Positions 1-53,400 of a stretch of DNA of 64,000 nucleotides are shown piece after piece. Position 1 is the stretch's first letter; each line of letters starts with the position of its first letter. The stretch lies in contig NC_060254.1 of NCBI RefSeq assembly GCF_921293095.1, positions 4,526,001 through 4,590,000 of the forward strand. Reading direction: 5' to 3'. The notes under the pieces were generated by a model. That model saw only the letters and a list, made by a program, of their open reading frames with translations, ran no database searches and was not told the DNA's origin. Position numbers and translations under genes: made by a program. Source of the stretch: Ischnura elegans (taxonomy: Eukaryota; Arthropoda; Insecta; Odonata; Coenagrionidae).

Positions 1-1146
1 TTCCCTCTTGTCTTTCCAAACCACTAGTAACACCTCACCTTTACGAGAGAACGTGCTCTGTCCCTTTTTCAAAGTTTTTGCCTCGCTCTTCAACGTGGGA
101 GGGAGTCCCCGATTTGGTCTTATGGTTCCACACACTCTTACTTTGTTATCTAAGAGCAGTTCTGCAATTTTCACACTATTATAATAGTTGTCTTGATAGA
201 CATGATGCCAAAGATTGAGATGTGGCTTCAAAAGAGACAAGATAGTTTGTTCTAATTTTTTCCCCTCGGCTGAATAAATTTCTAAATTACTAATGTAGCC
301 AGAATCACTTTCACAAACGATTCGAACTAGTAAACCATATTTTACAATTTTTGCAGGATTATAGGTCTTGATTTTCAATCTTCCTCTCCATGGAATCATG
401 GCTTCATCAAGTGACAATTCCTGCTTTGGTTTATACACATTTTGAAATTTTTCAACTAAGTATTCCAGGGTGGGTCTTATTTTATATAGTCTATCCGAAG
501 TATCTGAGAATGCTTCGTTATCACTAAAATGCCACGCTTTCCATATCTGCTCAAATCTGTTTCTCGTCAGTAGCTCTCTAAATATTTTTGTTTCGATGAA
601 AGGATCTGTACTCCAATACTCCTTCAGTGTATCTTTCCTCACTTGACCCATCAGAATCAAAATAGAAAATAATTTTTTCATTTCAGCCATGGTTATGTTT
701 GACCACTTCCCTGTTTTTGGCGATTCTTTGTATTTATGCTTATTTTGACAGTAATACAAATTGGATTGATGGCACATCATTTCAAAAAAATCATTACCAA
801 GAAATAGTGAGACTACGTCAAGGATGTAATTGGAATTTTCTGGTAATCGCTTCACTCCAGGTTGGCCCAAAAATTGCTCTAAATGTCTCTCAAAATCTAT
901 TTTTTCCCATGAAGTAGAACTTCCTGCCAAAGTATTGTCTTCATTTTCACTCGCATAGGAGTCACTTTCACTGATAACTAGAGGAATACGTTTTCTAGTT
1001 TTCATATTCACCACAACATCAGAATCGCTTTCACTTTCGTCGTTATCTTCGTCATACCCTAATGGTACATCTGACAAATCATCAGCACACAAGTCTAACA
1101 GAATTTCTTCTTCATCCAAAGTGTTGTCCTTCCGATGTGATGCCAT
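1..1146 (-). CDS. piggyBac transposase, N-terminal 382 codons (3' end outside window)
   Basis: The transposase cuts and inserts the element at TTAA. The frame starts with ATG at 1146-1144 (MASHRKDNTLDEEE) and I read it open to the left edge, checking the phase at several points. An acidic N-terminal region comes first (DEDNDESESDSD, about residue 30), as is usual in this family. The DDE_Tnp_1_7 type core follows: MAEMKKLFSILILMGQ, then LSLDEAMIPWRGRLK with the first catalytic Asp, then VYQDNYYNSVKIAELL with the second. The third Asp and the C-terminal zinc-binding region, if present, lie outside the window. It sits in intron 2 of the dsRBD gene copy A, in the same direction. No stop or frameshift was seen, so the element may be young. 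Confidence 0.92.
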   Translation of the reverse strand, partial: MASHRKDNTLDEEEILLDLCADDLSDVPLGYDEDNDESESDSDVVVNMKTRKRIPLVISESDSYASENEDNTLAGSSTSWEKIDFERHLEQFLGQPGVKRLPENSNYILDVVSLFLGNDFFEMMCHQSNLYYCQNKHKYKESPKTGKWSNITMAEMKKLFSILILMGQVRKDTLKEYWSTDPFIETKIFRELLTRNRFEQIWKAWHFSDNEAFSDTSDRLYKIRPTLEYLVEKFQNVYKPKQELSLDEAMIPWRGRLKIKTYNPAKIVKYGLLVRIVCESDSGYISNLEIYSAEGKKLEQTILSLLKPHLNLWHHVYQDNYYNSVKIAELLLDNKVRVCGTIRPNRGLPPTLKSEAKTLKKGQSTFSRKGEVLLVVWKDKRE

Positions 1147-1879
1147 AATATGGAATATTCTTATGAGTGGTTTTTAGAGCACAAATGCGTGCAAACCTTC
1201 AAGCGAGAAAAACTTGACACCAAATGTTCTATTCACTTGGACTCAGGGAAACACCAACTGCTCTTGACACATTAGGAGAGGAAACTAACCCAGAGGCAGG
1301 AAACAAGTAAGAGAGCATCATCTCCCTCCATGGCATGGACGAAAAGAACTGGGGGCCTCATTGTGAGTCCCCCAGTTCCTTTTGTCGAGAATGTTTATGT
1401 TGACGGAGCAGAGCAGTCCACTTGCTGAGAGTGCATCTCGAAGAAGCGGCGATGAAGATAAGGGTCAAACTCGCTAGATAAAACAAGGCCATGTGGATAA
1501 ACTCTTTGGAAATAATAAGCCAAGTGTGTGGGGTAACTCAAGGAAAACGATAAATAAGAAGCCAACGCTGGTAAGAAGAGGAACGCCGATTCTGGGTGGA
1601 GGTGTTGAGAATGGAAATATGTGCCTATTCGGGCGTAATGCCTTTGGTTTAAACATAGTTAAAAAGCTAATGTTTAGAATATAACTTTACCCAATCAAAC
1701 TTAATGATGTATCAATTCATTATTAATAACGAACAACAACTGATAACGTTCTAACGAATACGGATTGCACGCTTTAAAATTGTTTTGGTTGACGTGCCTA
1801 AATGACGAGAATCTTCGTCATCCGTCCGGAACGTTCGGGAAAAAAATGACGAGAATTCTCGCCATCCGTACGCAACGTG
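1..1879 (-). mobile_element. piggyBac-like DNA transposon, right part (left end outside window)
   Basis: The element ends at 1879 directly before TTAA, the obligatory piggyBac target. Read inward, the terminus is CACGTTGCGTACGGATGG, followed by two sub-terminal repeats built on ATGACGAGAAT (about 1802-1812 and 1846-1856). The boundary is confirmed by the duplicated locus at 62172, which has the same flank starting at TTAA without the element. The transposase lies on the minus strand and runs off the left edge. Bases 1147-1879 are non-coding; the short frames there match nothing I recognise. Confidence 0.9.
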
Positions 1880-1883
1880 TTAA
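1880..1883. repeat. TTAA target site of the piggyBac element
   Basis: TTAA joins the transposon end to flanking DNA that continues colinearly with 62172 onward, where the same TTAA has no transposon beside it. The second TTAA copy would be left of the window. Confidence 0.88.
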
Positions 1884-3605: not shown

Positions 3606-3676
3606 CTAAAACAGAACAAGTTTTAATAGCAACGAAAAGTTTGAGTACTTCATAAGCAATGGATTATCGCCCATAC

Positions 3677-3818
3677 CTCGGACATTTCCTGCTGTCACGA
3701 CGTACTGAAAGAAAGTATCGTGTCCAGCACTATCCGTAATGAGCTCATACTGAGGAGTAAATCCCTTTCTCAGCATATACTCATTCAAAGTTGACATCGG
3801 CGTTTTGGCCGTGGCCAT
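3677..3818 (-). CDS. dsRBD gene copy A, exon 1 (start codon, first half of dsRBD 1)
   Basis: ATG at 3818-3816 opens MATAKTPMSTLNEYMLRKGF, then TPQYELITDSAGHDTFFQY and VVTAGNVR, ending at donor CGAG|GTATGG. KTPM-x-L-NEY...PQYELI is the first helix and strand of a dsRBD of the PACT/TARBP2/Loqs/R2D2 type. The exon is 142 nt (47 codons plus one base). The start is chosen because it is the first ATG after a possible acceptor (TTAG near 3843 or 3861) and the domain begins at residue 5. The same exon recurs at 17046-17187 (inverted) and at the right edge. Confidence 0.88.
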
Positions 3819-3939
3819 GATGTACCGGTTTACGCCCCAATTCTAAGGGAGTGTTTCTACCTAATACACACAAAATAAAGGGCATGATAGTTAACCAATT
3901 CACTACAACCATAAACACGTGAGATGACTTATTACATAC

Positions 3940-3995
3940 CTCTTAAATTATTCAGCACAATACACTTGTCACGACACACAGTTAACCACCAGCCC
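3940..3995 (-). other. Probable 5' untranslated exon of dsRBD gene copy A
   Basis: A good donor (AAGAG|GTATGTAATAAG) lies at 3940, about 80 bases upstream of an acceptor-like TTAG before the ATG exon. This suggests a small non-coding first exon. The 5' limit is a guess. The mirror copy is at about 16865-16921 on the plus strand. Confidence 0.4.
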
Positions 3996-4230
3996 CGATA
4001 CCGAGCGCGTTCCGAGATTCACTGGCAGTACTGCCGGTGCTGCCAAACCGTTCCGAAATCAAATGGCAGTACGGGCAGCAAGGGGCCGACAGAACTGCGA
4101 TATATCGTATAGAAAACCTCTTTCGATTCGATTTTTCCGGAGCCCCAGTGGTCCAACGGCCTACCCAACATAGAGGCGCTGGTGTAGCCTGTTTTTCTGT
4201 GCAGTAATGAACTGGGGGCTGCCATATTGA
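3996..4230 (-). promoter_or_regulatory. Probable promoter region of dsRBD gene copy A
   Basis: A GC-richer island lies directly upstream of the putative first exon, in contrast with AT-rich surroundings. It contains the 12-bp palindrome GGCAGTACTGCC and a repeated ACTGCCA word. No TATA box is obvious. It is conserved in the inverted arm (about 16630-16865), with a 3-bp difference near 4075. The call rests on position and composition only. Confidence 0.35.
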
Positions 4231-5595
4231 ATCTCGATGTAAACAAACGTGATATTGAGGCTTATTGATAATCATTAGTGTTAACTGCAGACTTTTTTTA
4301 TTGCTTACAGTGTCCCTTACGATTTTGGAATGTGCTCGATGAAGGATACGAGTCTCAATGATCTTGGTTATTGCAAAATTGCATGGGTATGAAATGTATT
4401 TGGTTATGAAAATGTGAGTAATTCTGTTTCCTTCATTATTCCATTTTGATTTCAACCTGTGATTAGCTAACCTTTCCTCATGTTTTCAAAATTTTATGGT
4501 GTCTTGTATTCCTTATATTTCAATATGTTTTTCATTGTACTAGCAGTTTTTCTAGTGTTCAAACTACTCATTTATCGCTAGTGCTATGCTTTCGTTTGTT
4601 TAATGCTAATCATTTTGTTGGTTATGTATGTAATTTGCTATTTCAACTCTGTCCTTTCAACTGTTTAATTGTCATTAATTGAGCATTATTCATTAAGTGT
4701 TCTACGATGTTTACATTTCTTAAAACTTTAATCTCTTTCATTTTGAAGTAAGAACTTAATTTCTACTACATTGGTATAAAATATTCTTCACTTTTCTCGT
4801 TTTCTACTTTTGGAATACTTTCTTTCGTATAAGTGATTGATATTAACTTATAAGAACCTTTCATTTTAAGACTCCTCTGCCAAGATATGTTGCATATCTT
4901 AATGGGTACTCATCATGAACAACTTCCTACGAAATAATGTCCTCCTTTCATAATTAAATAATTATCTTCCATGAAATGATATCCAAACTTGCATGCTTAT
5001 TTCTAGTGAAGTATTGTTATGGTCTATGGTTTCAGGATTAGCATTGTTTTCCCTGTACCAGAGCTATTGCAAGATACATCTACCTCAAGGAAAATTGGGT
5101 CACCCTCTTTGTCTATAACTGTGGAGTGTTTACTTAAGTAATGGAATCTTTCTCCTATTACGCAAAGGCTGCTCATCTCATGTTGTCATTGATATTTGTT
5201 GCTTGTGCATCTCATGTGCTTGTAGAATGGTTAACTTTCTCAGATTTCATCTCTAGTATGTCATATTGAAATTGTTATTGTTGTATTTCTTTTGCCAGTT
5301 ATTGTATCAATAAATACTAATGTCCACTGAAGTAAGATTTCCGAGATCATTATTCTTACCAACCACCAGATCGCCAGTTGACTTTGTACATTAATCTTGT
5401 ATTATGGTTACTGCTTTAGTAACCTGGGGAAGTTCTTCAGGAAGATTTTCCTACATTCACTGCTTTTAAGTTTCTCGCAATTGCAGTATCATTATTAGGC
5501 CTGAATAGCACGCTCTATCGTGACGCGTAAAAAAAATTGAAACACGCGCCGAGATGTGCATTCAAACTTCGCGGCAGCATTGGACCACTGGCATA

Positions 5596-6599
5596 GGGTG
5601 CGGTCCGTTGAACGCTACCAATGCTTCGGAGCGCCACCAAGCGGTCCGTTATTCGCTACGGAGCGCTACAGGTTAGGCTGTGACGTCACGGCAAACGTCA
5701 TACACCCGTTTCCCGCCTCGCTCCGGACCAGCTCCAGACGCTCCCCTGAAAACTTGGGTCAGCGGAGGAGCGAGTCAATTTTTGGCGGAAATTCGAAGGG
5801 AATGCACTGAGGCAATGGAGAGTTTACTCACGTTGCAGATGATGGACGCTGAATGTGGACGCCTTTCTCCTATATAAGTGACTACGAAGTAACGGAGTAG
5901 ACGCGTTTAGTAAATAGATGTAAATTTAATTGTGATTTAAATAAATATATAGCAAGAACTAAATATCGACAAACATTCTCGTATCTCCCCCAAAATGAAC
6001 TCAAATGTCTTTGGAAGCAGCCTTTACATACAAAAGGCAACAAAAATTATTAAAAGGGGCATATAATATAAAGAAAGGATTGTAAGAACATATATCGACA
6101 AATTTACTCATGCAATAAATTAAAATCTGAAGAAAAATAGGATATACATGAAATAGATTAATGTTTTTTAATAGTCATTAGCCATTATAAGTTAATATGT
6201 TTCAACTGGGAAAACGGTAGAGTACCTACTTTTTCCTTTACTAGGGTAATGAGTTTCATTGAGAAGGGTAGGCGAGGGTTGGTGTGAGAAATACAGTCCA
6301 AAGTTTCTTCCTTTACTATTTGGAGCCTCGGCATTGAAAAATAAAATTCATTTTAATGATATTCAAACATATTTATTAATATTCAATGATCATAGTCACC
6401 TCAATTCGCAATTAAAACCACATCTTCGATTTCATAATCCCAGTTTGCCCACCCTCGTTCATTTCCGCCATCTTGACTTCGCTCCTGACCGGTCCGAAAA
6501 GAAATTCTCGTAGCGAACGTAGCGCCTATGGACCGGTGCTCCGGAGCACTTCCGTCTGTAGCGTCTGGTAGCGAAAGTAGCATTCATTGGACCGCACCC
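5596..6599. mobile_element. PIF/Harbinger-like non-autonomous transposon (1,004 bp)
   Basis: Termini are GGGTGCGGTCCGTTGAACGC and, from the other end, GGGTGCGGTCCAATGAATGC. The flanking ATA at 5593-5595 is repeated at 6600-6602, and arm C shows the empty site with a single ATA (near 15026). A 3-bp duplication with GGGTGC ends points to PIF/Harbinger, although ATA is not the usual TWA. Sub-terminal words such as cggagcgc and gctac recur at both ends. No transposase frame is present. Confidence 0.82.
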
Positions 6600-7723
6600 A
6601 TAGATGGCACTGGTGTATCAAAACCTATACGCATTATCCTTATGGGTATGTCGCCCCCTTGGCACGGGGGCCTTCACAGTTCGGCGGTTCGGCGTTGCGC
6701 AGAGTCCTCTGGATGGCAGTTCTCTACACTACTCCCTCATAGGGTCGAGTCGTTCCATACACTTCCACTATGGGAATTGAGACGTCCGCCATTTTAGTTC
6801 TTCCGTCTCTATAGAGTCTTATGGGGGAAAGTGATATAATGCCAGTTTTTTCATAAATACGCGATTCCTGTCGCATTTTCGGTAATTATAATATATTCAG
6901 TCTTGAGGTACTAGGAACACTTTACTATCAATTTGTAAATTTTAAATCGTGAAAAATAACAAATATTCGCGCTTCAGTTAAGTTTTGATTCTTTTCACAG
7001 GACGTTTTTCTAGATATGAAACTCTCATATTTATGTCTGAAACAGGGTAAATTGTTTCCAAAAGTACAATTACTGCTCCCAGGGCTACTATATAGCGTTT
7101 TGTTCTCGTCAAAGGAATAATTTCAGATTTTGAAAAGTACAATATCAGCTGAGAGAGAATTGTTATCTTCAGATCGGAAGAGATTTCGCATGTACTATCT
7201 GAGTTAACTTCCATGAAAACAGCGCAATGGATATTATACGAGGAATTTAAGGACAAGTCTGGTCAATTCTTAGTGCCGAAAAATCGGAAATATTATCCTA
7301 CCTCAAAATTAGACAAGAAAAACTAAATAAGTCACAAGCTGTCATGCAGTTTATGTACTTTTCACGAGAGTTGCAGATCATAAAAGATATCATCAAAGGA
7401 GGTATATAAAAGAAAAAAATCACATTTTTCCAAAGTCTATAATGTACACACACCACAAATGTTACATTTTAAGATTTCCAGAATGATTTAACAATTCCAT
7501 TGAAACTAAGATTATTTACATAATGCAAAATAAAAAATAAATGTTAAGTGCACAAGATGTAACATTTCTATTAAAATGGATTCAAATTAGTTGGAGAGAA
7601 TGATGAATAGGTGATGACAGCTGCCACACATCTTGCATTCTTCTCAATGTTGCTATGTTCCTTTACCACCAATGACATTGACTACTCGAGTATATGAACC
7701 TGTAATTAAAAATATAAATAAAA

Positions 7724-13740: not shown

Positions 13741-15691
13741 ACCACCGGCAGAGCTCCTGTATTCTTTCTGTGAAAGACAAAAAATACAGTGTGCTTTAAG
13801 TAGAGGCTCGCAAAAGCCGTTCCGCTCGAGTCTCGCTCTCGGGAGTCAAACTGGTAGTCTCACTCCCGGGAGCGAACAATCCCGGATTGCGGTCTCGGTT
13901 TTATTTATATTTATAATTACAGGTTCATATACTCGAGTAGTCAATGTCATTGGTGGTAAAGGAACATAGCAACATTGAGAAGAATGCAAGATGTGTGGCA
14001 GCTGTCATCACCTATTCATCATTCTCTCCAACTAATTTGAATCCATTTTAATAGAAATGTTACATCTTGTGCACTTAACATTTATTTTTTATTTTGCATT
14101 ATGTAAATAATCTTAGTTTCAATGGAATTGTTAAATCATTCTGGAAATCTTAAAATGTAACATTTGTGGTGTGTGTACATTATAGACTTTGGAAAAATGT
14201 GATTTTTTTCTTTTATATACCTCCTTTGATGATATCTTTTATGATCTGCAACTCTCGTGAAAAGTACATAAACTGCATGACAGCTTGTGACTTATTTAGT
14301 TTTTCTTGTCTAATTTTGAGGTAGGATAATATTTCCGATTTTTCGGCACTAAGAATTGACCAGACTTGTCCTTAAATTCCTCGTATAATATCCATTGCGC
14401 TGTTTTCATGGAAGTTAACTCAGATAGTACATGCGAAATCTCTTCCGATCTGAAGATAACAATTCTCTCTCAGCTGATATTGTACTTTTCAAAATCTGAA
14501 ATTATTCCTTTGACGAGAACAAAACGCTATATAGTAGCCCTGGGAGCAGTAATTGTACTTTTGGAAACAATTTACCCTGTTTCAGACATAAATATGAGAG
14601 TTTCATATCTAGAAAAACGTCCTGTAAAAAAAGAATCAAAACTTAACTGAAGCGCGAATATTTGTTATTTTTCACGATTTAAAATTTACAAATTGATAGT
14701 AAAGTGTTCCTAGTACCTCAAGACTGAATATATTATAATTACCGAAAATGCGACAGGAATCGCGTATTTATGAAAAAACTGGCATTATATCACTTTCCCC
14801 CATAAGACTCTATAGAGACGGAAGAACTAAAATGGCGGACGTCTCAATTCCCATAGTGGAAGTGTATGGAACGACTCGACCCTATGAGGGAGTAGTGTAG
14901 AGAACTGCCATCCAGAGGACTCTGCGCAACGCCGAACCGCCGAACTGTGAAGGCCCCCGTGCCAAGGGGGCGACATACCCATAAGGATAATGCGTATAGG
15001 TTTTGATACACCAGTGCCATCTATGCCAGTGGTCCAATGCTGCCACGAAGTTTGAATGCACATCTCGGCGCGTGTTTCAATTTTTTTTACGCGTCACGAT
15101 AGAGCGTGCTATTCAGGCCTAATAATGATACTGCAATTGCGAGAAACTTAAAAGCAGTGAATGTAGGAAAATCTTCCTGAAGAACTTCCCCAGGTTACTA
15201 AAGCAGTAACCATAATACAAGATTAATGTACAAAGTCAACTGGCGATCTGGTGGTTGGTAAGAATAATGATCTCGGAAATCTTACTTCAGTGGACATTAG
15301 TATTTATTGATACAATAACTGGCAAAAGAAATACAACAATAACAATTTCAATATGACATACTAGAGATGAAATCTGAGAAAGTTAACCATTCTACAAGCA
15401 CATGAGATGCACAAGCAACAAATATCAATGACAACATGAGATGAGCAGCCTTTGCGTAATAGGAGAAAGATTCCATTACTTAAGTAAACACTCCACAGTT
15501 ATAGACAAAGAGGGTGACCCAATTTTCCTTGAGGTAGATGTATCTTGCAATAGCTCTGGTACAGGGAAAACAATGCTAACCCTGAAACCATAGACCATAA
15601 CAATACTTCACTAGAAATAAGCATGCAAGTTTGGATATCATTTCATGGAAGATAATTATTTAATTATGAAAGGAGGACATTATTTCGTAGG

Positions 15692-15984
15692 AAGTTGTTC
15701 ATGATGAGTACCCATTAAGATATGCAACATATCTGGGCCCATAACCTCTGTTGGTATTTTATTGGAAAGCACTGGTAGTTGTAAATGAATTAAATGCAAT
15801 AACTCTTCATATTTTAAAAGTTTTAGTAGTACCGTATTTTAACTTCACACACATAAGGATTGTTAACAAATACAGATCAACAAACAATCTTGGTAACCAA
15901 CCAACAGAGACAAAACACAACTGAAAATTACAAATGTCAACAAGTTGTTCATGATGAGTACCCATTAAGATATGCAACATATCT
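15692..15984. repeat. 43-bp direct repeats flanking a 207-bp insert in arm C
   Basis: The sequence from aagttgttcatgatgag to gcaacatatct occurs at 15692-15734 and again at 15942-15984, but once in arm A (about 4876-4920). The 207 bases between (15735-15941) are absent from arm A. Forty-three bases is far too long for an ordinary transposon target duplication, so a template-switch or tandem duplication followed by insertion is more likely. Confidence 0.8.
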
Positions 15985-16984
15985 TGGCAGAGGAGTCTTA
16001 AAATGAAAGGTTCTTATAAGTTAATATCAATCACTTATACGAAAGAAAGTATTCCAAAAGTAGAAAACGAGAAAAGTGAAGAATATTTTATACCAATGTA
16101 GTAGAAATTAAGTTCTTACTTCAAAATGAAAGAGATTAAAGTTTTAAGAAATGTAAACATCGTAGAACACTTAATGAATAATGCTCAATTAATGACAATT
16201 AAACAGTTGAAAGGACAGAGTTGAAATAGCAAATTACATACATAACCAACAAAATGATTAGCATTAAACAAACGAAAGCATAGCACTAGCGATAAATGAG
16301 TAGTTTGAACACTAGAAAAACTGCAAGTACAATGAAAAACATATTGAAATATAAGGAATACAAGACACCATAAAATTTTGAAAACATGAGAAAAGGTTAG
16401 CTAATCACAGGTTGAAATCAAAATGGAATAATGAAGGAAACAGAATTACTCACATTTTCATCACCAAATACATTTCATACCCATGCAATTTTGCAATAAC
16501 CAAGATCATTGAGACTCGTATCCTTCATCGAGCACATTCCAAAATCGTAAGGGACACTATAAGCAATAAAAAAAGTCTGCAGTTAACACTAATGACTATC
16601 AATAAGCCTCAATATCACGTTTGTTTACATCGAGATTCAATATGGCAGCCCCCAGTTCATTACTGCACAGAAAAACAGGCTACACCAGCGCCTCTATGTT
16701 GGGTAGGCCGTTGGACCACTGGGGCTCCGGAAAAATCGAATCGAAAGAGGTTTTCTATACGATATATCGCAGTTCTGTCGCCCCCTTGCCCGTACTGCCA
16801 TTTGATTTCGGAACGGTTTGGCAGCACCGGCAGTACTGCCAGTGAATCTCGGAACGCGCTCGGTATCGGGGCTGGTGGTTAACTGTGTGTCGTGACAAGT
16901 GTATTGTGCTGAATAATTTAAGAGGTATGTAATAAGTCATCTCACGTGTTTATGGTTGTAGTGAATTGGTTAACTCTCATGCCC

Positions 16985-16990
16985 TTTATT
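16985..16990 (-). terminator. Candidate polyadenylation signal AATAAA for gene B read-through
   Basis: TTTATT on the plus strand gives AATAAA on the minus strand. I saw no other canonical AATAAA on that strand between the stop codon of gene B (17291) and this site. Use of the site would place antisense exon 1 (17046-17187) inside the 3' UTR. Confidence 0.35.
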
Positions 16991-17045
16991 TTGTGTGTAT
17001 TAGGTTGAAACACTACCTTAGAATTGGGGCGTAAACCGGTACATC

Positions 17046-17187
17046 ATGGCCACAGCCAAAACGCCGATGTCAACTTTGAATGAGTATATGCTGAGAAAGG
17101 GATTTACTCCTCAGTATGAGCTCATTACGGATAGTGCTGGACACGATACTTTCTTTCAGTACGTCGTGACAGCAGGAAATGTCCGAG
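17046..17187 (+). pseudogene. Inverted copy of dsRBD exon 1 (copy C)
   Basis: ATG at 17046 opens the same 47 codons as exon 1 of copy A and ends at the same donor, CGAG|GTATGG. The duplicated segment stops 39 bases after the donor, so exon 2 does not follow. Promoter and putative UTR exon are retained upstream, so the fragment might still be transcribed, running rightwards and antisense to exons 7 and 6 of gene B. I call it a pseudogene fragment because no matching downstream exon exists on this strand. Confidence 0.85.
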
Positions 17188-17290
17188 GTATGGGCGATAA
17201 TCCATTGCTTATGAAGTACTCAAACTCTCCACATGGTGGTCGACTGCACCACCGTTATTTGAAAAAGCGCAGAGCTGCTGCGCTTTATGG

Positions 17291-17442
17291 TCACCTCTCC
17301 TCGCAGCGCCCGATCATCATCATCAGAGCGTGAAGAAGATTGACCGACGCCATCTCTTCAGCTGCACTCTTGTCAGGACCTTCACCAAATTTCACCAACT
17401 CCGGAGTGGTACCCAGACTAGCAGCGCACAATGCATTCCCAA
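17291..17442 (-). CDS. dsRBD gene B, exon 7 (end of third domain, stop)
   Basis: Acceptor TTGTACAG|TTGGGA follows a pyrimidine-rich tract (ctctccc). Joined to exon 6 (C + TT) it reads LGNALCAASLGTTPELVKFG, then EGPDKSAAEEMASVNLLHAL and a TGA stop at 17293-17291. The EGPDKSAAEEMA segment sits where canonical dsRBDs have GxGxSKKxAK, so this is a divergent, probably protein-binding, domain. Only 64 bases separate the stop from the breakpoint of arm C. Confidence 0.87.
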
Positions 17443-20400
17443 CTGTACAAGGGAGAGCAGAATTAGGTCAACGCGTACATCAACCCACGACTTGTTCTTT
17501 CAAAAACACCATTGAACAACAACTGAGATTACCCGGCTAATTTTTGCAGTTTCTTGAGTAAGCTAAAGGTTTCTCAGGCATCAAATCAAATTTATCCTTT
17601 CAACAAAAATTCAAAGTTTCACCTTCATTCTTCACTCAACATGGAATCTTCTAAAAATAGGTTGAATATAATGTAGATTTGAAAAAAATGGAAAAATCTC
17701 GCGTTTATGAAAAAATTTAAGTTAGGAAAATAGTTTTAGCTTCTAATTAAATTGTTATCGATAAAAGCAGAAGATTCCGCAACAGTAAGAGGTTTATGAT
17801 AGGATACAACCCAACTAGAGGCCACACCCCACCCAAGGGAGAAAAAAAATACCTTACCAGAAACCAAAAATTCTGCCCTGCAAACCACTGCAATTAGGAG
17901 TGGCAATTAAGAGACTTTGGTTTGAATCCAAACTGAGCCACCAGAGTTTTTCACAGCCAGCATCAGCCTTGATTGAAACCCACTTTGCCTAACTGTGTGG
18001 GAAGTCACTTTTCAGAAGCAGTGTTTGGAAATAATGTTAAAGAGCTGCTCGAGTCAGCCACACAGCATACACAAGAGTGCACTTACGATTAGATTTCATG
18101 AACATGTAATCAAGAGGAAGGTCATTCCCTTCTGCAAACTTCTCCAAAGTCTCCTTGGGTGTGTGGCTCAACGCAAACTGAAAGCAAAGACAAGCAGAGT
18201 GTTACAAGAGTGGTTTCCAAAAATAAATGCATCATTCTCTCTGCTGGCTACTTATTGACTTGCCAGCCATCTAACCAATGGAAACACTTGGACCCAAAAT
18301 CACAATTCCCCAAAAGAACTCAGTACACGTAAGGAGGAAAATACAAGTTACGTCAGAGAAAAATCTTCGCATTGAAATTTAGCAATGAAAAGGATATTCA
18401 CATCTGTATAGTCATTTTGCATTTTTCTTCCTTTTCTTACGTGAAGATGCCAACAAATCCTTCACTTTCACCATTTCTTCTCACTCTATCTTAATTAAAA
18501 CAAGACATCAAAGTGCCAAAAGCAAGGAATTTGGATGATTGAAAACATTTTACACCATAGCAGTCATTGAGGCATCGAAGATCCTGCCAGTATCTAGCAG
18601 GTGCATTCCCTGAGGTATTCAGCTGTAGTTCGTACATCCTTTCATTCAGAATTAATATCATCTCCACTATACACCATTCACTGGCTTGTCGTAATAAAGA
18701 CATAAATAGAGGAAAAACATTGATTGCATTGATGAAACACTGACATTCTTTACAGTATATGGTGCTCGGGGGTAACTGGGGCATAGTTTTTCAATGTGAT
18801 AGTACCATTTCATTTTCAAATATGTATTTATTGTACAGATAACTCCAGTGAATGGGTGAAAATAAACACGTAGATTTGACAATAATATGACTAGCACATC
18901 ATGTGACTTGAATTTAATTACTACCATTAAACAATATTTTATATTAATATTATTTTCACATCTCAGTTGACCCCACTTACCCCACTACTTGAGGGTAACT
19001 GGATCACCCCATGGCAAATCCCATTTGAGCACTGCCACAATTATTTTGGATAACTGGATCTATCAAAGTACTTTAAATTATCAGAAAAAATATTGGTTAA
19101 CACAGCTATTTTGATTATTATGAATGTAAAGGCCGTTGTATCAGAACGGTTACGGAGACCTCACGGATTTCCCTTTCAAAACACAAACACCAGAGGCGGA
19201 CTCTGCCAAGTCGAACATTCTGAGTTAGTGCTTCAGAGATTTCAATCGGTGGGGTGAATTCTCAGCTGAAAAATGCGCAGTAAATTCTCGGTGAAGCTTC
19301 ATTCAATTCACTGCAATATTCATGAACTCTTCCGCGCATTCTTACATTATTAGATATAAAATCAATAAACATTAATATAGTCTAAGAGTTGCATCTCGAG
19401 CATTGCCAATCAAAATGCGTAATATTATTCCCCGAATTGACCGATCCCATGGATTCAGGAAAGTATGGTATCTCAGCGCTACATTACTAAACTGAATACT
19501 TAAATTGATTCATTATGTTATACTGCGATCAGGGTTCCCACTCTACCTGAACAATGAAATTCACGGCTTTTTCCAGGTTTTCACGGTTATTTTTCACGTT
19601 TTCACGGTTTTTTTAAGGTTTTCACGGTCTCAATTTTGCTAAATTCACGGTCCGTTAATAAGCCAACAATAAGAAAATCACTGGCCGTATATCAACAGAA
19701 AATTAACGTACGCGAAAAACGCCGTGAATGTTAACGCCGCAATGAAAAGTGATATCTGTTATGACGTGATCTATCGTTTGTAAAATTCAAGGCCGACTAA
19801 AGGACCAGCCCAACCGCGCTCTTGCCCGGACGCCGAATACCCTTCGGACCTTCTTCCGTCCGGACACTCGAGGTCCTTTTTTAATTCCTCGCTGAGAGAT
19901 TGTTTTTTGCGCACGTTGTTATTACTGCACAGTAACCGAATTTCCCCCACCCCAATATTTCTTATTTAACAGAAAATATTTTATTTAAATTGTTTATAGA
20001 TTATAATAAATTGATTCTTTCTTATTCAGCGGAAAATATTTTATGAAAATTGTTAATAGAACATAATAAATCGAAAAACAATTTCATACACCGTATTAGC
20101 ACGAATCTAAGACAAACACGATTCTAACTCTACCCTCCTTTTTTGGAACTCCACTAGGGGACAATTTTTCTTTATTAATAACGATACGATTATAAAATGA
20201 ATGCGGAAAAACGATCAATGCTTAATTTTTTTGCTAGATTGCCTATGTCCCAGGAAACGCAGGATTTTGGCGAGTAATTAAGAAATTCATTAAAGGTTTC
20301 AAAACAATATTTTAGATAATAACAGGAATAGTAGTACTTTATCAAGATACATACGTCATATTGTTGATTCGACCCATGTCTCTTTCAAAATTCTGAATGT

Positions 20401-32400: not shown

Positions 32401-35400
32401 CACAGGTACGTAATTCGTCATTATGATTGATGATAATTTAAAATAATTCACCTTATTTTTACTTTTTGTGGGATTATTAACTACCATATGAAGACTTGCT
32501 AAAAACTTAAATTCAATCGAAATAAATATCATTTTAACTGCGATTTAGCCCCCAAAATGGAATTTTAGAAACGTATGCAAAAATGAGTTTTGTTGTGCGG
32601 GTGGTCTATACTACAATTTTGTTGTTAACTCATAGACATTGTTTGAACCGTATATTTTGTCAAATAAACTTCAAATTTCATTTTTATAAACTATAAACAT
32701 GTATCCACTCTTTGATATTATCCATTATCCCATATTTTCATTAAATTCGTCTTCATAGCCGTTTTATTCTGAAATCAGCCTGATTTTTCACAAAATTTTA
32801 ACCCTTTCGCGCCGGACCTTCGTTGAAGGAAATTCTTCCTCAATACGAGTCTCTTGAAAGTTTTCTTTACTCCTCTGTACGAAGCCTTTCCGCGTCGACT
32901 AAAGGCAGTGGGTACCTCCCTAACCTTTTTTGGACCCAACTCAGAGGGCACCGATCCCTTTCCTCTGCCTCTGTCCCAGACCCTAGAAGGATTAAAAGCC
33001 CCTTCCTAGCACGAGTTCGCGGTCAACTGGCTAAAATGTTAATGCAAAATATATGAAAATATTTGTTGCTCGCACCGATTTTTTTACATTCAAAATGAAT
33101 TTTGTGTTTTGTTTCTGAGCGTGGAGAAATTTTAAACGAAGTTCTAACGTTGATTTAGACGGATTTAATGTAATTACTTGTAGTTCTATAACTCCGTTGA
33201 GATTAACGTTAGAATTTTGTTTGAAATTTCCATGTGGTCAGCAAAAAAAGATGAATTCATTTCTAGCATTGAATTTCAAAAGTACGCAACAAATATTTTT
33301 TTGGAAAACACACTGCAAATAACAGTAGTTGACCACGTGGAGAGGATAGGAAAGGGTCGACCTGAGCGGCCGAAGAAGGGACTGGGCTCGCGCTAAGGCG
33401 GATCACAAGGGGCGACCGCGTCCGTGGGTCTATTGTGTCCGCCACGGTCACTTTTTTCGACCTGTGCCGCACAGGCGCGGCATTCGTTGGTTAGGGTAAG
33501 AACATTCAGGACGCACTGGTGTGGCATTCGTAGTTGAGGAAAAAAAATCCTCGCCGCACAGGTGCGGGATTCGGCACGAAAGGGTTAAACTTTAGAGCTC
33601 GGGTGGCAGTGGTTAATATTATCCGATTTGAAAAAAAATTTGTTTGCGAGATCCTTATATCTTTTCGCAACTTTCCCGCATAGGGCAAATTTGATCAGGA
33701 AAAAAAACCTTTTTTCGGCCTACCCTAATGCACAGTCCTCATCAAGTATAGCTTACGGAGATGGAATGATTTATTGGGAGGTGTTTTTCAGGTTCTAATG
33801 CATCACTTCAAAGCATGTACAGTCCTCATCAAGAGTTTTTATTTATCACTATCCAAAACCAAACCATTAACCCAACTGCCCTGACCTGCAGAGCAACGCT
33901 CGACCGCAAAATATACCCCATCGAGCCAACTATGTACACACACACTTACACCTCTCAAAATTGACAGCTGAGGACCGTAGAGTTCTTGCAGCATCAGGTG
34001 AGACGTGCTGAGCGTTTGGCTCACATTCTTGCCAGCTGAACTCCCACCATCTTTATCCTTGATGGAGCAGTAGCCATCAATGGCAGCCTGATAATTTTTC
34101 TCCTCAAATTTCACCTGCCATAATAAAAATAAAAGTAATGATAACCAAGGAAAAGACCATCGTCCAGAAAGTCACTGAGGAATAAAACATCAGGTTCACA
34201 CTCATTCCAACAGCACAACTGAATAAATAGCATAACAGAATAACATGACTTGAATAGAATAGCAAGAAAAATGTGGACAGATATGAAAGCACGTCACCCA
34301 AACTCTCCAATTGCAAGGTACATAACGTACATAAGAAACGTACATAAAACGAGGAAGAGGCAGGAGAGAATTAACATTAATCTTCACAATAAACACATTG
34401 AAAAACTTAGAAATTACGTCAGCAGACTCCCGATTATCCGGCTACGGTTTATCCGGGTTCCGGATTATCCGTACATGTTTTCACTCTCGCTCAATTCTTC
34501 TGCGATCTTTATAAAAAAATAAAACTGAACATAAAATCACCAGAATCACTCCATTATAATATGTACCAGGATACACTGCAGTCATTATTTCCCTTCGTAA
34601 AACGGAAGCAATCAGACCCAAGCTGCATTCACGGGAGCACCGTGTTCCTGTTTTCCAAGCCTCACAGAGTATGACCGCGCTCCATGATCACGGACACATG
34701 TCCCGCAGCAGTTGCAACGCGGGCAACTTGTGCGAGATGCGACTACGTGGCATGGAGCCTGACAGTGTAGTTTCCGACGTCACGCAATGGTTTTGAAGCA
34801 TTTGTGCAAACCACTTTTCAGTATCCGTTATCACACAGCCACGGATGTGTGGTTTTCGAAACCAGGCCTTACATGGAGCATTAATTATACGAGTAAAAGC
34901 ATATTGTCGCCGATAAAAAGACCGCGAACTGGCGAAGAAAGCTTTCAATGAGTCCGGGAAGCACTCTTAAATAACAGAATAACTGCATAAATAATAATAT
35001 ATTGTTTGTTTTACGTAAATTATGAACATTGCAAGACATTTGAGAGAAAGTTTGGATAATCCGCGTTTTTCGATGATTCGTGTCGTATCTCCCCATCATT
35101 AGTCCGGATAATCGGGAGTGTATTGTACTTCTTCTATAATATGAAACAAGCACTCTCCATAAGTCCATAAAGAAATATAATGACAAATGCTCACCACTGC
35201 ATGGTAAACAGCGAGTGTAAAAATAGCAGGAGAGGAGGAGAGTGGATGATGGAGGAAACAGCTGTATGGAATGTTTTCTACATCTTCCTTCATCAAAAAT
35301 GTATGGACACCTTACAGTCAAATACCTGATTGAAACTGATGGTGCAATAGCAGCTATACAAGACAGGCTTATCAGCGCAAAAAATCATAGAAAATTTATA

Positions 35401-38400: not shown

Positions 38401-41400
38401 TAAAAATTAATAAGAAATCTTCATTATTTTGAAAATACGAATCTGATCCGGTCCTGGCAATTACAAAATGAACTTTATTACGAAGTTCCACTAGTAGTAG
38501 GCAACGGCATTTAGGTGGAAATAGACTACGCTACTTTATCATCATTGCACTCCATTTAAATTCTCCTTGTGCATTGTGCCCAAGAGCGTCAATTATGGTA
38601 CTTCATTCAGTAGGGGATATGTACTTCAGTATGCACGCAACATCAGATACTAAGCTTCATTCCTGTGGAATTATGGTGACCCACTCATTAATGCTCGCAA
38701 ATTGGACGTCCAGTTAGTCCTCTTCCTACGCACATTGGATTTACGAACTTTCAGAGATATGACGTTTAAAAAAATTCAAGAGTGCCCAAAATTTAAAATT
38801 TGGTGCCTATTGAGTTTGCCGATGCGACACGACATGATGTACAGGAACTCGCACTTTGGGCTGCACAAAGTATCATTTAATCTGGTTTGAAGTCAGGAAC
38901 TGTTCAGCGCTTCGCCCGTTCTTTCTTCCCGCACAAAGCGAATTTTTTCGGCACCGGCTACATTGCAAGCTAGATCAGTTAGTCACAATCGTGAGTTAAC
39001 GCACGATTGTGATGCAGTGTTGCATTCTGCAAGATCTCTCGATGCCTTGTATAGGTTTATCAACTTACGAGCAAGGTCTCGGAACGCATCTTCTTCGTAT
39101 ATCGAGGACTTGTGCATAATTTAATCGCGTACATTACACACTTGACTCTGAAGATTATAAGTTTAGGAGATTGAAGAGACAAGAAATTTTGACAAAGTAT
39201 GTTTTTTTTTATTCGATGATTCCTAAAAGAAACATTCATACGAACTTCGTTATTACGAACCTCTGCTTTTTCAGTCCCGTGAATGTCGTAATAACGAGAG
39301 TCTTCTGTAGTCTACATAAAATGGAATAGCTAGAATACTTTACTAGATAACCGAGTATCAGATAAAAATTTAATAAATTTGAGTCATCTAAACTATTTAA
39401 TTGAGTGGCACAATAGGTATGGAGACCAGTAAAAAGGATGCACTAACCTTCTCAGCTTGCTTCACCGTTCTCGTCTCACTGATCAAAGGTGAGGCCATGG
39501 CCAGATGTTCCCTTATCTTGTCAATCATCAGCTTGGCAGAAATTTGTTTGGCTTGCTTTTTTGTGCGAGCCTTCCCTGGAAGCAAAATCATAATTCCATG
39601 ACTTTTACACTCAAACATCATCATCATAACAAACATCCGTTCCACAAAACACCTCTGCACAGCAAATATACATCATGGCCCCAATCACCCTCTCATGAAC
39701 CACACCTCTTCCCAAAAAGCATTTCTGTGCATAAAAATTAATTGGTGGCACACACAAGATTTTTCACCTGTTTAGAACAAAATACATAGCAAGATTTGGT
39801 CACTGACATTCCCAATTATGCCATCACAGAGCACAATGCCGAAGAGTAGCTAAAGAAATATGAAACGAACGATATGATACATTAATGCGAACAACCTTAT
39901 TACCAAGTTTTCATTATTAGTACAGTCTGAACAAAGTATCAATTAATCCATCATGAATTTAAGAACTGTTCAGCATTTCACCCATTTTTCCTTCCCCACT
40001 GATGGCAAATTTTTTTCGGCTCCAGCCACGTCGCACGAGCAGCTAGATCAGTTTGTCACCATCATGAGTCTATGCAAAATTGTATTGCAGTGTTGCATTA
40101 TGCAGGTTAACCAAACTTTTCAATGCCTTGCATAGGTTAATCCATTTATGAACAAGGTCTCGGAACAGACTTTGTGCGAAATTCAGTCGTCTAATTTTAA
40201 ACACTTGGCTCTTAAGCTATTCCGCAGTGCAACTATAAGTACGGGATATTAAAGAGACAAGGAATTTTGGCACAGTATGTTTCTTTGAGATGATTCCTGA
40301 AAGAATCATAATTACAAACTCCATTATTACGCACCTATGGTTATCGGTCCCACGAACTTTGTAACAAAGAAAGTCTCCTATAATTCCTTTTTCATTCCTG
40401 TGATTTGAATGGTGTTGAAGGCCATTAAAAATGCACATATCCAGGAAAAAACATTTGAATTTTTTCATGGGAATTTTGGAAAAATTCCTCACTTTAGCTG
40501 CTGCTTGTTGCAATGTAGCTTGATTTAACTCACTCCCAATAATTGGCCAGGACATATGAGCCAAAATATTTTCTGTACAGTAAACAATGAGTTTTTATTG
40601 CCTTAGAATTAGTAAGCTATACAGCAAACACTTCCATGCAAAAAGAAATTTTTAGTCCCAAAAAGTCTGTTTTAAAGATATACTACTGTATAAGCCTGTG
40701 TAAGAGGCACACCTTTGAGGCAAGTGATTTATGGCCTGTGGCATCTTGGAAAGGAAAAAATCAGAGGCATTGGCTGATGGAGGGCCGAGTGTGGTTCCAT
40801 GAAATACGGCACTGAGATTCCCCCAATTGTCGCTCAATCTCTTGGGAAGATTCAAGCTATGTGCCTGCCGTGTTTTGCCTTAAAAATTTCCACCGCTGCA
40901 ATACTCCTAAGAAGGTGTTTAAACAAAATTGTTCGTGAGTAGGACAAGCATCGTAGAGCAACGATGTATGCAAAGAGAAGATAGGAACTCTTTCTAATCC
41001 CTCTAATGGGACATTGCATTCATGAAAGCAATGATTTAAAATTTCGGATTCATATTGAATTTCCTCAACAAATTTGGATCCTAAGTATAAGGTGAAGGGC
41101 ATTATTCGTGGAAATTTGGATCCGAGGTATCCGATCCGACCATACCTAGTAAGCATCATAAGGTTAAGACTATAAGTGAATACCTACATATCACCGAGAG
41201 CCATACGTATCATGAAAATTAGGCTGAAAAAATGCCGCGTAAATTTTTAGTACTGAAAGAGGAAATTTTGATAACTGTCGAAAGTCCAGGCATACGTCTG
41301 CAACACAAACGATAACACAACAACGATAGGATAAAAAAATGCCGCAAATTTTTTTTTCTTCAGCTCCGACGCTCAAAATATGGGTGCGTCTCTTACATGC

Positions 41401-50400: not shown

Positions 50401-53400
50401 AAAAATGCCGCAATTTTTTTCTTTATAGCTTTGATCCTCAAAATAGGGGTGCGCCTCTTACACGTGTGCGCCTCTTACACACGCTTATAAGGTAATATCA
50501 TGAGTTGCAGTGTTTACAAATAGGTAACAGATTTATTCACCATTAATGTCATTCATCCAGAATGCATTCTGTCCCAAGCATTTGTAAGTTGCCGTGACTC
50601 TCTCATCATTGTCATCATCCATCAGAGAAGGATAGGAAGAGTTGCACAGAAAATAAGTCGGGAAATTTCGGGAAAACTAACGCTTTATTCTCACTTCATT
50701 AACAGACCCACGTCGACTGAATGCTGTGCCATTGTCTCCCTCTCGTCAGTGTCGTAGACATTTATTTCAATCATTTTACATCCATGCTACATGAACTCAA
50801 TCACTGAATCATGAAAGAAGACATCTTGGAAAGAAAAATAACATAATGAATAAAATCAAAGGACCCAAAATAAAAAGAAAGACAAGCCATTAACAACTAC
50901 TTGACTCCATTTCAACATAGTGTGCGGCAATTCGCTGCTAGTTCTTCTGAGGTATGATAGATAGCATCCAGTACGCACTAGTTTTTTTATACGTACACCA
51001 TTTAGTAAAATTTTCATTGATCTTTCAAAATTTCATGAATCTTGTTTTTGCTAATTTTTTCTGTTATCCGGCCTTAAGACTCCCTGACATCCCTTATGTT
51101 CGATTCAAGTCAAGTTCATTTCAAATCCCTTGAAAATGCATCATAGATTGTCATCATGATGATGACAATAAACAATGGCTACTCACCCTGCTCCCTTAGC
51201 GTAAGCACCTGGCAGAGAATGACAAATGTTTTCGAATGCGCAGGACCAGACTCAGCCACCAGTTGGTACTCTGGTTCTTTGAGGTTCTGTTGCGCACACA
51301 GCTCTGCCAGCGCACCAACAGAATTCTCCGTCACCTGCTCAGCATACGGGGAGACAGCCACAGACGCAGCGTCATCCTTATCAAGTGCCCTGCAACACAT
51401 GCACACCCATCACCACAAAGAACATATCAAAACAGTAATTCAATCCAGCTTGTGGAACTTTTCAATCACGACAGTTCAATGATACGATATGATGACTCTT
51501 CTTTCTTGCTTGACAACAAATTGCTTTCCACAACCCTTGCAGAACAATCAGACAAAACCTTCCTGCAAAACCTACCTCAAAAACTACGCATATATGGTTT
51601 AAGCGAATTAGGCTGGGAACCGCTTGAGACTTGGGAGGCTGCACGCACTAGGCTTAGTTTGCTTGAACAATTGAGAATGGATATCTTTAAGAGTGACACA
51701 GAGAACATAATATTAGAGCCACACTAAATTTCTAGGTCCGATAGAAGCGATAAATTAAGAGAGATGTTTTGCCGAATGGATAGATATGGGAATTCGTTTT
51801 TTCCCCGAACCATAAAGGACTTCAATAAATGCTAGTTCCATCTTCGTTAGAGCACTTCATTTTTTATGTGTATATGGCTGGTGTCCTAACACCCCCTGCC
51901 ACACGTCTTTCAGGCGGCTTGCAGGGTATTATGTAGATGTAGAAGTATCCTGGGAGTAGCCACGGAGATAACTTTACAGGAGTCACTTGCAAAGCACAAA
52001 TTGTACGAAAAATTCACAGAGAAAAAAATCATTTGCCTTGACCGGGATTTGAACCTGGATGCCCCTATCTCTGGTCAAATGCTTTAGCCAACTAAGCCAC
52101 CGAGGCATCATCCCTCCCACTGGATATTTGCGGACACTACCGCACAAGGTGTGGACACTACCACCTTGTCCAGTTATGTCCACAAATATCCATAGGGATT
52201 AGGGATGTGTGAGTACTCGAAAATTCGAGTCGAGTAGTTGGTACTTAACTCAAGTGATTCGAGTGGCATTACGAATGTTGAGTCGAGTCGAGTAGTTTCG
52301 GTTACAGTGTTGTCGATGCCAGTAAGTTCAAAAATCTGCCGACAGGAAGCGCTATCATGAAGCATTATCACAATGGTGCAAATGCTTTTACTCAGGGCTG
52401 TTTCTGGCAGTTCGGCTACATATACATATAAATATTAATTAAATTCACCACATATTACCATAGGTTAATTCATTCCCATAGTGCTTATGGAACTTTTCAA
52501 GACTCTTTAATTTTCATTCATTTCCTAATACAGACGCAATTACCATCAACATTCCTCATAATCTTTCACTTTTTACATCAAGCTAAGCATTCAGGACAGA
52601 AAATTCACAAAGGGATTTGAAAATTAGAATATGTTGTCGCATATATATTATCATATTGCCAGATCCAGAGATGACCAAACTCGACTCGACTCGATACTCC
52701 TGAGTAGTTTTCAACTCGAGTCGAGATCAACAAGCACTCCTTGCACATCGCTAATAGGGACGAATGATGCCTCGGTAGCTTTACAGGCTAAAGTGCTCAA
52801 ACGGAAATAGGGGGGGGATCCAGGTTTGTCTGTGGATTTCTCCCACTACACATATTTCCCACCCTTAAGGGTGCCTTCATAGCTCGGCGTTGCATACTTG
52901 GGGGCAGAGCTAACTCATCGCAGCAAGTTGGAGCCCATCACAGTTCTGCGTTGCGAAAACAAATGAAAGGCAAAATGCATTGGCTCCTAAAAATCGGCAT
53001 GGGAGCATATCATCTTATGATTTCGAGCAAAACACACTATACATATGTTGTTTTGTGTATTTTTATGCAATTTCATTTCTTAAAATATTCTTCGCAACTA
53101 TAAATAGCATTTGAAGTTAATATGGCGACCATAATTTCAATAATCATGCATGTAATGATGGCCCTTGCCTATGCATTATTATGATCTTTAAATTTTATTT
53201 CCCAACTTGGAATATTCGAAAAATAGCTATTTACATACACTCAGTGAACATGAGTAACTTGGAATGTTATCAGGAATATTTATTAATGATAACTGTTGTT
53301 CAAATAGATTCCCCTAGTCATGTTATCTAAATAGCTCTAACTGAGTAGATCATGGGGGCACAATTATTAGATATCAATTGGAATTTAAACGACCGTAGTC

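Follow-up and report, generated by a model that had tools for sequence, protein, structure and literature searches.

Why does a gene for a putative RNA interference (RNAi) cofactor carry, closely behind its stop codon, an inverted copy of its own gene family's promoter and first coding exon, and what would become of a transcript that ran into it? The locus lies on chromosome 9 of the damselfly Ischnura elegans (assembly ioIscEleg1.1), in the stretch of 64,000 nucleotides at C9:4526001-4590000 that we call the window, which is free of any N; the genome searched comprises 1,722,721,009 bases in 110 sequences. The geometry that an earlier note had read from the letters is borne out in most respects. 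Gene B, on the minus strand, does end at 17291 with a TGA codon, and the inverted copy, said to start 64 bases after it, begins 64-66 bases further on at a junction (17225-17226) with a 2-bp CT overlap. The first AATAAA on that strand is indeed the one at 16990-16985, past the antisense exon; weaker poly(A) variants precede it at 17289 (CATAAA), 17108 (AGTAAA) and 17001 (AATACA). The claimed coding overlap of 142 nt was recovered as well, and it grows to 184 nt when the 5'-UTR part of the inverted exon 1 is included. The inverted arm (Table 1) is longer than the interval considered in that note, and its length and identity exclude chance; the inverted-repeat geometry is confirmed as real. What had to be amended is the partner. 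The copy had been taken for B's own promoter and exon 1, and exon 1 of B, as read in the flanking genome (locus L026), is indeed near-identical to it: 3 of 184 bases differ, and a single one of these is coding (ACG to ACA, which leaves a G.U pair in RNA). Within the window, however, the full-length partner is the neighbouring gene A; the promoter of B and the greater part of its exon 1 fall outside the window, which holds only 32 nt of that exon.

Table 1. Coordinates of the features of the locus (positions in the window)
Feature	Position	Strand	Remark
Counterpart of the arm in gene A: upstream region, promoter and exon 1	3638..7723	-
Junction J1	13898..13899	.	no overlap; arm abuts the ~155-bp terminal inverted repeat (TIR) of a different element
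Inverted arm: upstream region, promoter, exon 1, 39 nt of intron 1	13899..17226	+	reverse orientation to genes A and B
Insertion private to the arm, 250 bp	15692..15941	+	203-bp high-copy element (15739-15941) and 47-bp duplication
First AATAAA downstream of gene B	16985..16990	-	past antisense exon 1; downstream G+T 0.35
Inverted exon 1, 184 nt	17004..17187	+	ATG 17046-17048; antisense in gene B read-through transcript
Junction J2, B 3' UTR / inverted intron 1	17225..17227	.	2-bp overlap (CT)
Gene B native 3' UTR remnant, 64-66 nt	17226..17290	-	native ATTAAA and cleavage site missing
Gene B exon 7	17291..17442	-	stop codon 17293-17291
Gene B exon 6	18087..18177	-
Gene B exon 5	33950..34114	-	in isoform P0002, not in P0001
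Gene B exon 4, end of second dsRBD	39448..39575	-
Gene B exon 3, second dsRBD	51187..51389	-
Gene B exon 2, end of first dsRBD	63768..63897	-
Gene B exon 1, last 32 nt	63969..64000	-	remainder to 64152 (extended coordinates) past window edge

Gene B is intact as a coding unit. Its seven exons have GT-AG borders and encode 336 amino acids in an undisturbed reading frame, and the product equals the annotated protein P0002 except at residue 2. Both P0002 and P0001, the annotated I. elegans proteins homologous to the genes of the window, carry the name 'RISC-loading complex subunit tarbp2-like'. The order of exons 2-7 is confirmed by five spliced, intron-less retrocopies and that of exons 6 and 7 by a sixth. 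Two further candidate exons were dropped: a 33-nt mini-exon and a frame at ~2,790-2,680 in copy A, neither of which is used by the retrocopies or the annotated proteins. P0002 contains two N-terminal dsRNA-binding domains (dsRBDs; PF00035, two stretches, 101.1 bits against a Pfam cut-off of 23) and, at its C-terminus, a candidate for the third, Dicer-contacting dsRBD-like domain, which stays below the cut-off (Staufen_C, 18.7 bits against 27) with a weak match to TARBP2 (E 0.92). Matches to solved structures, obtained with a query that contained the wrong 11-residue mini-exon and lacked exon 5, had E-values of 3.8e-24 for TARBP2, 2.6e-23 for Loqs and 2.5e-8 for R2D2. This favours a product closer to TARBP2/Loquacious than to R2D2; a further protein search on the Loqs versus R2D2 identity gave no decisive names, and one with a partial query gave no match. 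The earlier assignment to the family that handles dsRNA together with Dicer can thus be kept at the level of sequence, by which B encodes a TARBP2/Loqs-type dsRNA-binding protein.

The arm reproduces the region of gene A listed in Table 1 in reverse. The two differ by 14 mismatches over 3,076 aligned bases (99.5% identity) and by four indels, namely a ~988-bp TIR transposon present in A only, the 250-bp insertion present in the arm only, and differences of 2 bp and 3 bp. The TIR element occupies 5597-6584 (more broadly, 5597-6603) in copy A and has 11-bp ends GGGTGCGGTCC; the arm has the empty site. The 203-bp element in the arm's own insertion is high-copy and almost uniform throughout the genome (40 of 245 candidates scored), and the insertion adds a further minus-strand AATAAA at 15763. 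Like an hpRNA locus, the arm is a long inverted repeat that matches a protein-coding gene. Among the 94 matches of the whole-genome protein search (99 of 99 candidates scored), only one, in this arm, has exon 1 on the opposite strand; the uniqueness applies to the gene-derived part only, as positions 13899-14924 are a dispersed repeat (40 of 1,479 candidates scored). An older fragment (~95%) of the gene's upstream region is found on a different chromosome (L042, C7:3621600-3624800).

Comparison with the six sister copies covered on both flanks shows that the arm has replaced a native stretch, which measures ~4.9-5.0 kb in two of them (L014, L017) and 7.2 kb in the other four (L015, L016, L018, L019). 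Neither junction has extended homology, and at J1 the arm side lies inside the dispersed repeat. The arm looks like a product of end joining or of template switching between repeats. Different parts of it are closest to different copies, one segment to A (2 differences in 1,100) and another to the chromosome 6 copies (4 in 1,274-1,285, versus 10 in 1,285 for A), and hence exchange between copies has occurred. Two other origins were abandoned. A duplication-inverted triplication-duplication of A, arm and B is not called for, A and B being merely two units of a seven-copy array, and the idea of a retrotransposed antisense transcript ending in a retroelement fails because the repeat continues past J1 in five dispersed copies and DNA was lost at the site.

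The array to which A and B belong is part of a young family. The whole-genome protein search found 12 gene copies, seven on chromosome 9 (4.47-4.93 Mb) and five on chromosome 6 (91.45-91.81 Mb), plus one 5' fragment, a thirteenth locus, on chromosome 6, in which nothing but a split exon 1 and an exon 2 is present. When scored exon by exon, exons 1, 2, 3, 4, 5 and 7 are each present with an open frame in 12 of 12 copies; matches to exon 6 extended into introns, so that this exon was not cleanly scored. A 281-bp stretch of the second-dsRBD exon is listed as 100% identical in all 12 gene copies (17 of 17 candidates scored, the other five being retrocopies). In exon 2 none of the 13 loci has more than one difference in 130 nt, and one of these differences alters an amino acid; the 11 sister copies have no more than two in the 152 nt of exon 7. 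Flanking DNA diverges by 0.1-0.8% both within and between the two chromosomes, partially aligned copies being left out. A distant relative with 35% identity is located at C5:9458044-9458238. The six processed retrocopies (L020-L025) fall into five that share their 3' flank and a separate sixth; because of the shared downstream flank we count the five as one insertion that was later copied. Other members of the array have also been altered. Directly behind the stop codon, four of the seven chromosome 9 copies (L009, L010, L012, L013) carry an insert of ~4 kb that starts with an (AAT)n tract and has a 5-bp overlap resembling a target-site duplication, and another chromosome 9 copy (L028:2099-5207) has an independent inverted duplication of the promoter region that does not include exon 1, with arms 98-99% complementary.

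What distinguishes B within this family is its 3' end. The 11 sister copies and the six spliced retrocopies define the native one, with ATTAAA at ~+131 and cleavage at ~+155 nt after the stop codon: beyond the first 66 nt of the 3' UTR, 11 of 11 sister copies continue with the same sequence, and in 6 of 6 retrocopies the A-tract begins at ~+155 with ATTAAA before it. The native UTR stands directly after the stop codon in seven of the 11 sister copies and is separated from it by the ~4-kb insert in the other four, so that the 12 genes have seven native 3' ends, four with the insert and one, that of B, with an inverted exon. In B, antisense intron 1 and exon 1 follow after 64-66 nt of native 3' UTR, and the native poly(A) site is consequently gone. 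As both its signal and its cleavage site are missing, B transcripts are likely to read through into antisense exon 1. The AATAAA beyond that exon has a downstream G+T content of 0.35, compared with 0.525 at the native site, and with so weak a downstream region a read-through RNA may lack stability or terminate at another position; it could also be spliced or retained in the nucleus.

It had been proposed that such an mRNA would pair with its own first coding exon, and folding supports the pairing as a prediction. In the modelled B read-through RNA, cut 20 nt past the AATAAA at 16990 and with exon 0 left out, 182 of the 184 exon 1 bases are paired with the new 3' UTR (1,379 nt, MFE -680.0 kcal/mol), as against six such pairs in the version with the native UTR (1,213 nt, MFE -399.4 kcal/mol). 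The predicted hairpin is near-perfect, and the start codon lies inside the duplex. Scanning ribosomes should be halted by a long stem over the start codon, and according to the modelled fold the masking of that codon would alone suffice to prevent translation of B. Long intramolecular duplexes are moreover described as typical substrates of insect Dicer-2 in the form of hpRNAs (PMC10317233). As to possible targets, the 165 21-mers of the inverted exon have 132 exact matches in each of 10 of the 13 exon 1 loci and 114-128 in the other three. Since the sister exons share most 21-mers, siRNAs, if any are made, could act in trans on the family. A self-limiting loop confined to B, as the earlier note had pictured it, is too narrow: exon 1 is common to 12 copies.

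Taken together, we tentatively favour the view that B has become, by accident, a hairpin locus of the Lgc1 or hpRNA kind that silences B itself, perhaps with effects in trans. A rearrangement would have exchanged the DNA behind the B stop codon, including the poly(A) signal, for an inverted family promoter and exon 1; B transcripts would then run on into antisense exon 1, and the RNA would fold back into a hairpin of ~184 bp over the start codon. We infer that B would yield little protein and that its RNA would instead serve as an hpRNA-like substrate for Dicer, with exon 1 siRNAs that could also target the 11 sister copies. We take the arrangement to have arisen when a young array rich in repeats broke by accident, and not as an evolved regulator.

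Are there precedents for such a locus? In rice Lgc1, loss of the terminator is reportedly the cause of read-through. Loss of DNA between the end of one glutelin gene and its inverted homologue (GluB4/GluB5) created a transcribed inverted repeat that elicits RNAi against the family (PMC10647759). The damselfly locus resembles Lgc1 in its highly similar multigene family (12 copies and a fragment) and in the loss of a transcript end, along with the native DNA, beside an inverted homologous sequence. Lgc1, however, consists of two whole genes tail to tail, whereas here a promoter-exon 1 fragment stands behind the stop codon; pairing would be with the first coding exon, the host is an insect, the gene itself encodes a putative RNAi cofactor, and silencing is a prediction. 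Drosophila hpRNA loci such as D. simulans hp88 and the ballchen hpRNA are young inverted repeats built from pieces of protein-coding genes, situated near or in existing transcription units and matching members of amplified families (PMC10317233). For these, Dcr-2-dependent siRNAs and target derepression are documented there, whereas the damselfly hairpin is predicted from DNA and, unlike them, would be part of the message of a gene whose coding sequence is intact, with the start codon inside the stem. In D. miranda, GAPsec and S-Lap1 are amplified, X-linked GAPsec copies are without AATAAA, and the authors propose read-through antisense RNA and RNAi (PMC6690552); the antisense RNA there hits a neighbouring gene and small RNAs were seen, whereas in B the antisense sequence matches exon 1 of the same gene. 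Insects also offer, in Aedes loqs2, a case in which the first dsRBD of an RNAi cofactor gene was duplicated; loqs2 is a new protein-coding gene (PMC10809485), whereas the damselfly fragment is exon 1 only and inverted. Lgc1, the Drosophila hpRNAs and, as proposed, GAPsec/S-Lap1 work on the principle that we predict for B. What is new is that the gene is an RNAi cofactor by sequence, that its promoter and first coding exon form the inverted part, and that the locus belongs to an array.

But need the arm do anything at all? The main rival to an accidental hairpin locus is that the arm is a neutral scar of a young tandem array, with B poorly expressed or its read-through RNA degraded or retained, and with no siRNA effect. 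The damage elsewhere in the family speaks for this, namely the stop-codon inserts in four of the seven chromosome 9 copies, the split 5' fragment on chromosome 6, the independent inverted promoter duplication in L028 and the transposons private to single copies, as does the lack of extended homology at either junction. We nevertheless consider a neutral scar somewhat unlikely, as the coding frame of B is intact and the layout is just that which triggers RNAi elsewhere. Regulation in the proper sense, in which the cofactor mRNA with its antisense exon 1 would be diced only at high levels of the cofactor, with siRNAs capping all 12 copies and so offsetting the amplification, appears decidedly improbable. 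A further reading, improbable as the main account, turns on the promoter in the arm, which might drive a plus-strand RNA from ~16.9 kb into the 3' end of B and thus create a convergent cis-NAT and a small truncated frame. The arm does have the same upstream region and exon 1 as active-looking copies, and a plus-strand open frame of 103 codons (17022-17333) would encode half a dsRBD with an unrelated tail; yet the ~250-bp insertion lies ~1 kb upstream, and both the activity of the promoter and its transcription start are putative. Transcription from the arm is compatible with a hairpin in the B transcript and may act together with it.

Two readings would keep the arm out of the mRNA or out of the genome altogether. 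A cryptic poly(A) site in the remaining 64-66 nt, for instance at the CATAAA directly after the stop codon (17289-17284), would end B transcripts before they reach the arm; the earlier note had itself raised a poly(A) site before 17226 as a counter-explanation. The sister copies have the same CATAAA, yet 6 of 6 retrocopies, which go back to two insertions, extend to the distal ATTAAA site, which makes CATAAA unlikely as the native choice and led us to reject it as the normal signal; that it serves B in this way is very improbable. Likewise raised before, an assembly error, with the arm being chimeric or misplaced haplotype sequence, gains some credit from the difficulty of assembling long arrays at 0.1-0.8% divergence. 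The arm, however, has six substitutions (two, one and three per segment, at 13913, 14628, 15580, 17006, 17015 and 17054) that are shared with none of the sister copies aligned over at least 90% of the respective segment (10, 9 and 10 copies, partial ones dropped), the other copies having 0 to 6 private substitutions per segment; three of the six lie in exon 1, where they lower the pairing slightly. In addition, the 203-bp transposon is present at that site in none of the sister copies covering it, the junctions lack long homology, the window is unbroken, and the 3.3-kb arm is shorter than the 12-20-kb sequenced fragments (PMC9975421). We regard an assembly error as very improbable.

If the hairpin in the B transcript is diced, the locus would be a natural case of an RNAi cofactor mRNA that is a substrate of its own pathway, an hpRNA caught as it arises within a coding gene, and a single-locus test of whether RNAi can cap extra dosage of an RNAi gene. 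Even with an inert hairpin, a recent amplification of a TARBP2/Loqs-type gene to 12 copies on two chromosomes is unusual. Among the best matches listed in searches of the literature on Odonata RNAi genes and Ischnura tarbp2, there was no report of the amplification or of this locus, which is not proof of absence. The amplification is relevant to the efficiency of RNAi in Odonata and to their antiviral defence. Finally, the introns of both genes hold other sequences: that of A a piggyBac-type transposase on the minus strand (window 1-1880, extending past the window edge; PF13843, 220.4 bits), which adjoins a TTAA where the similarity between A and B ends, and that of B a weak tRNA match on the same strand (52034-52106; 33.2 bits, gathering score 29), perhaps a tRNA-derived repeat.
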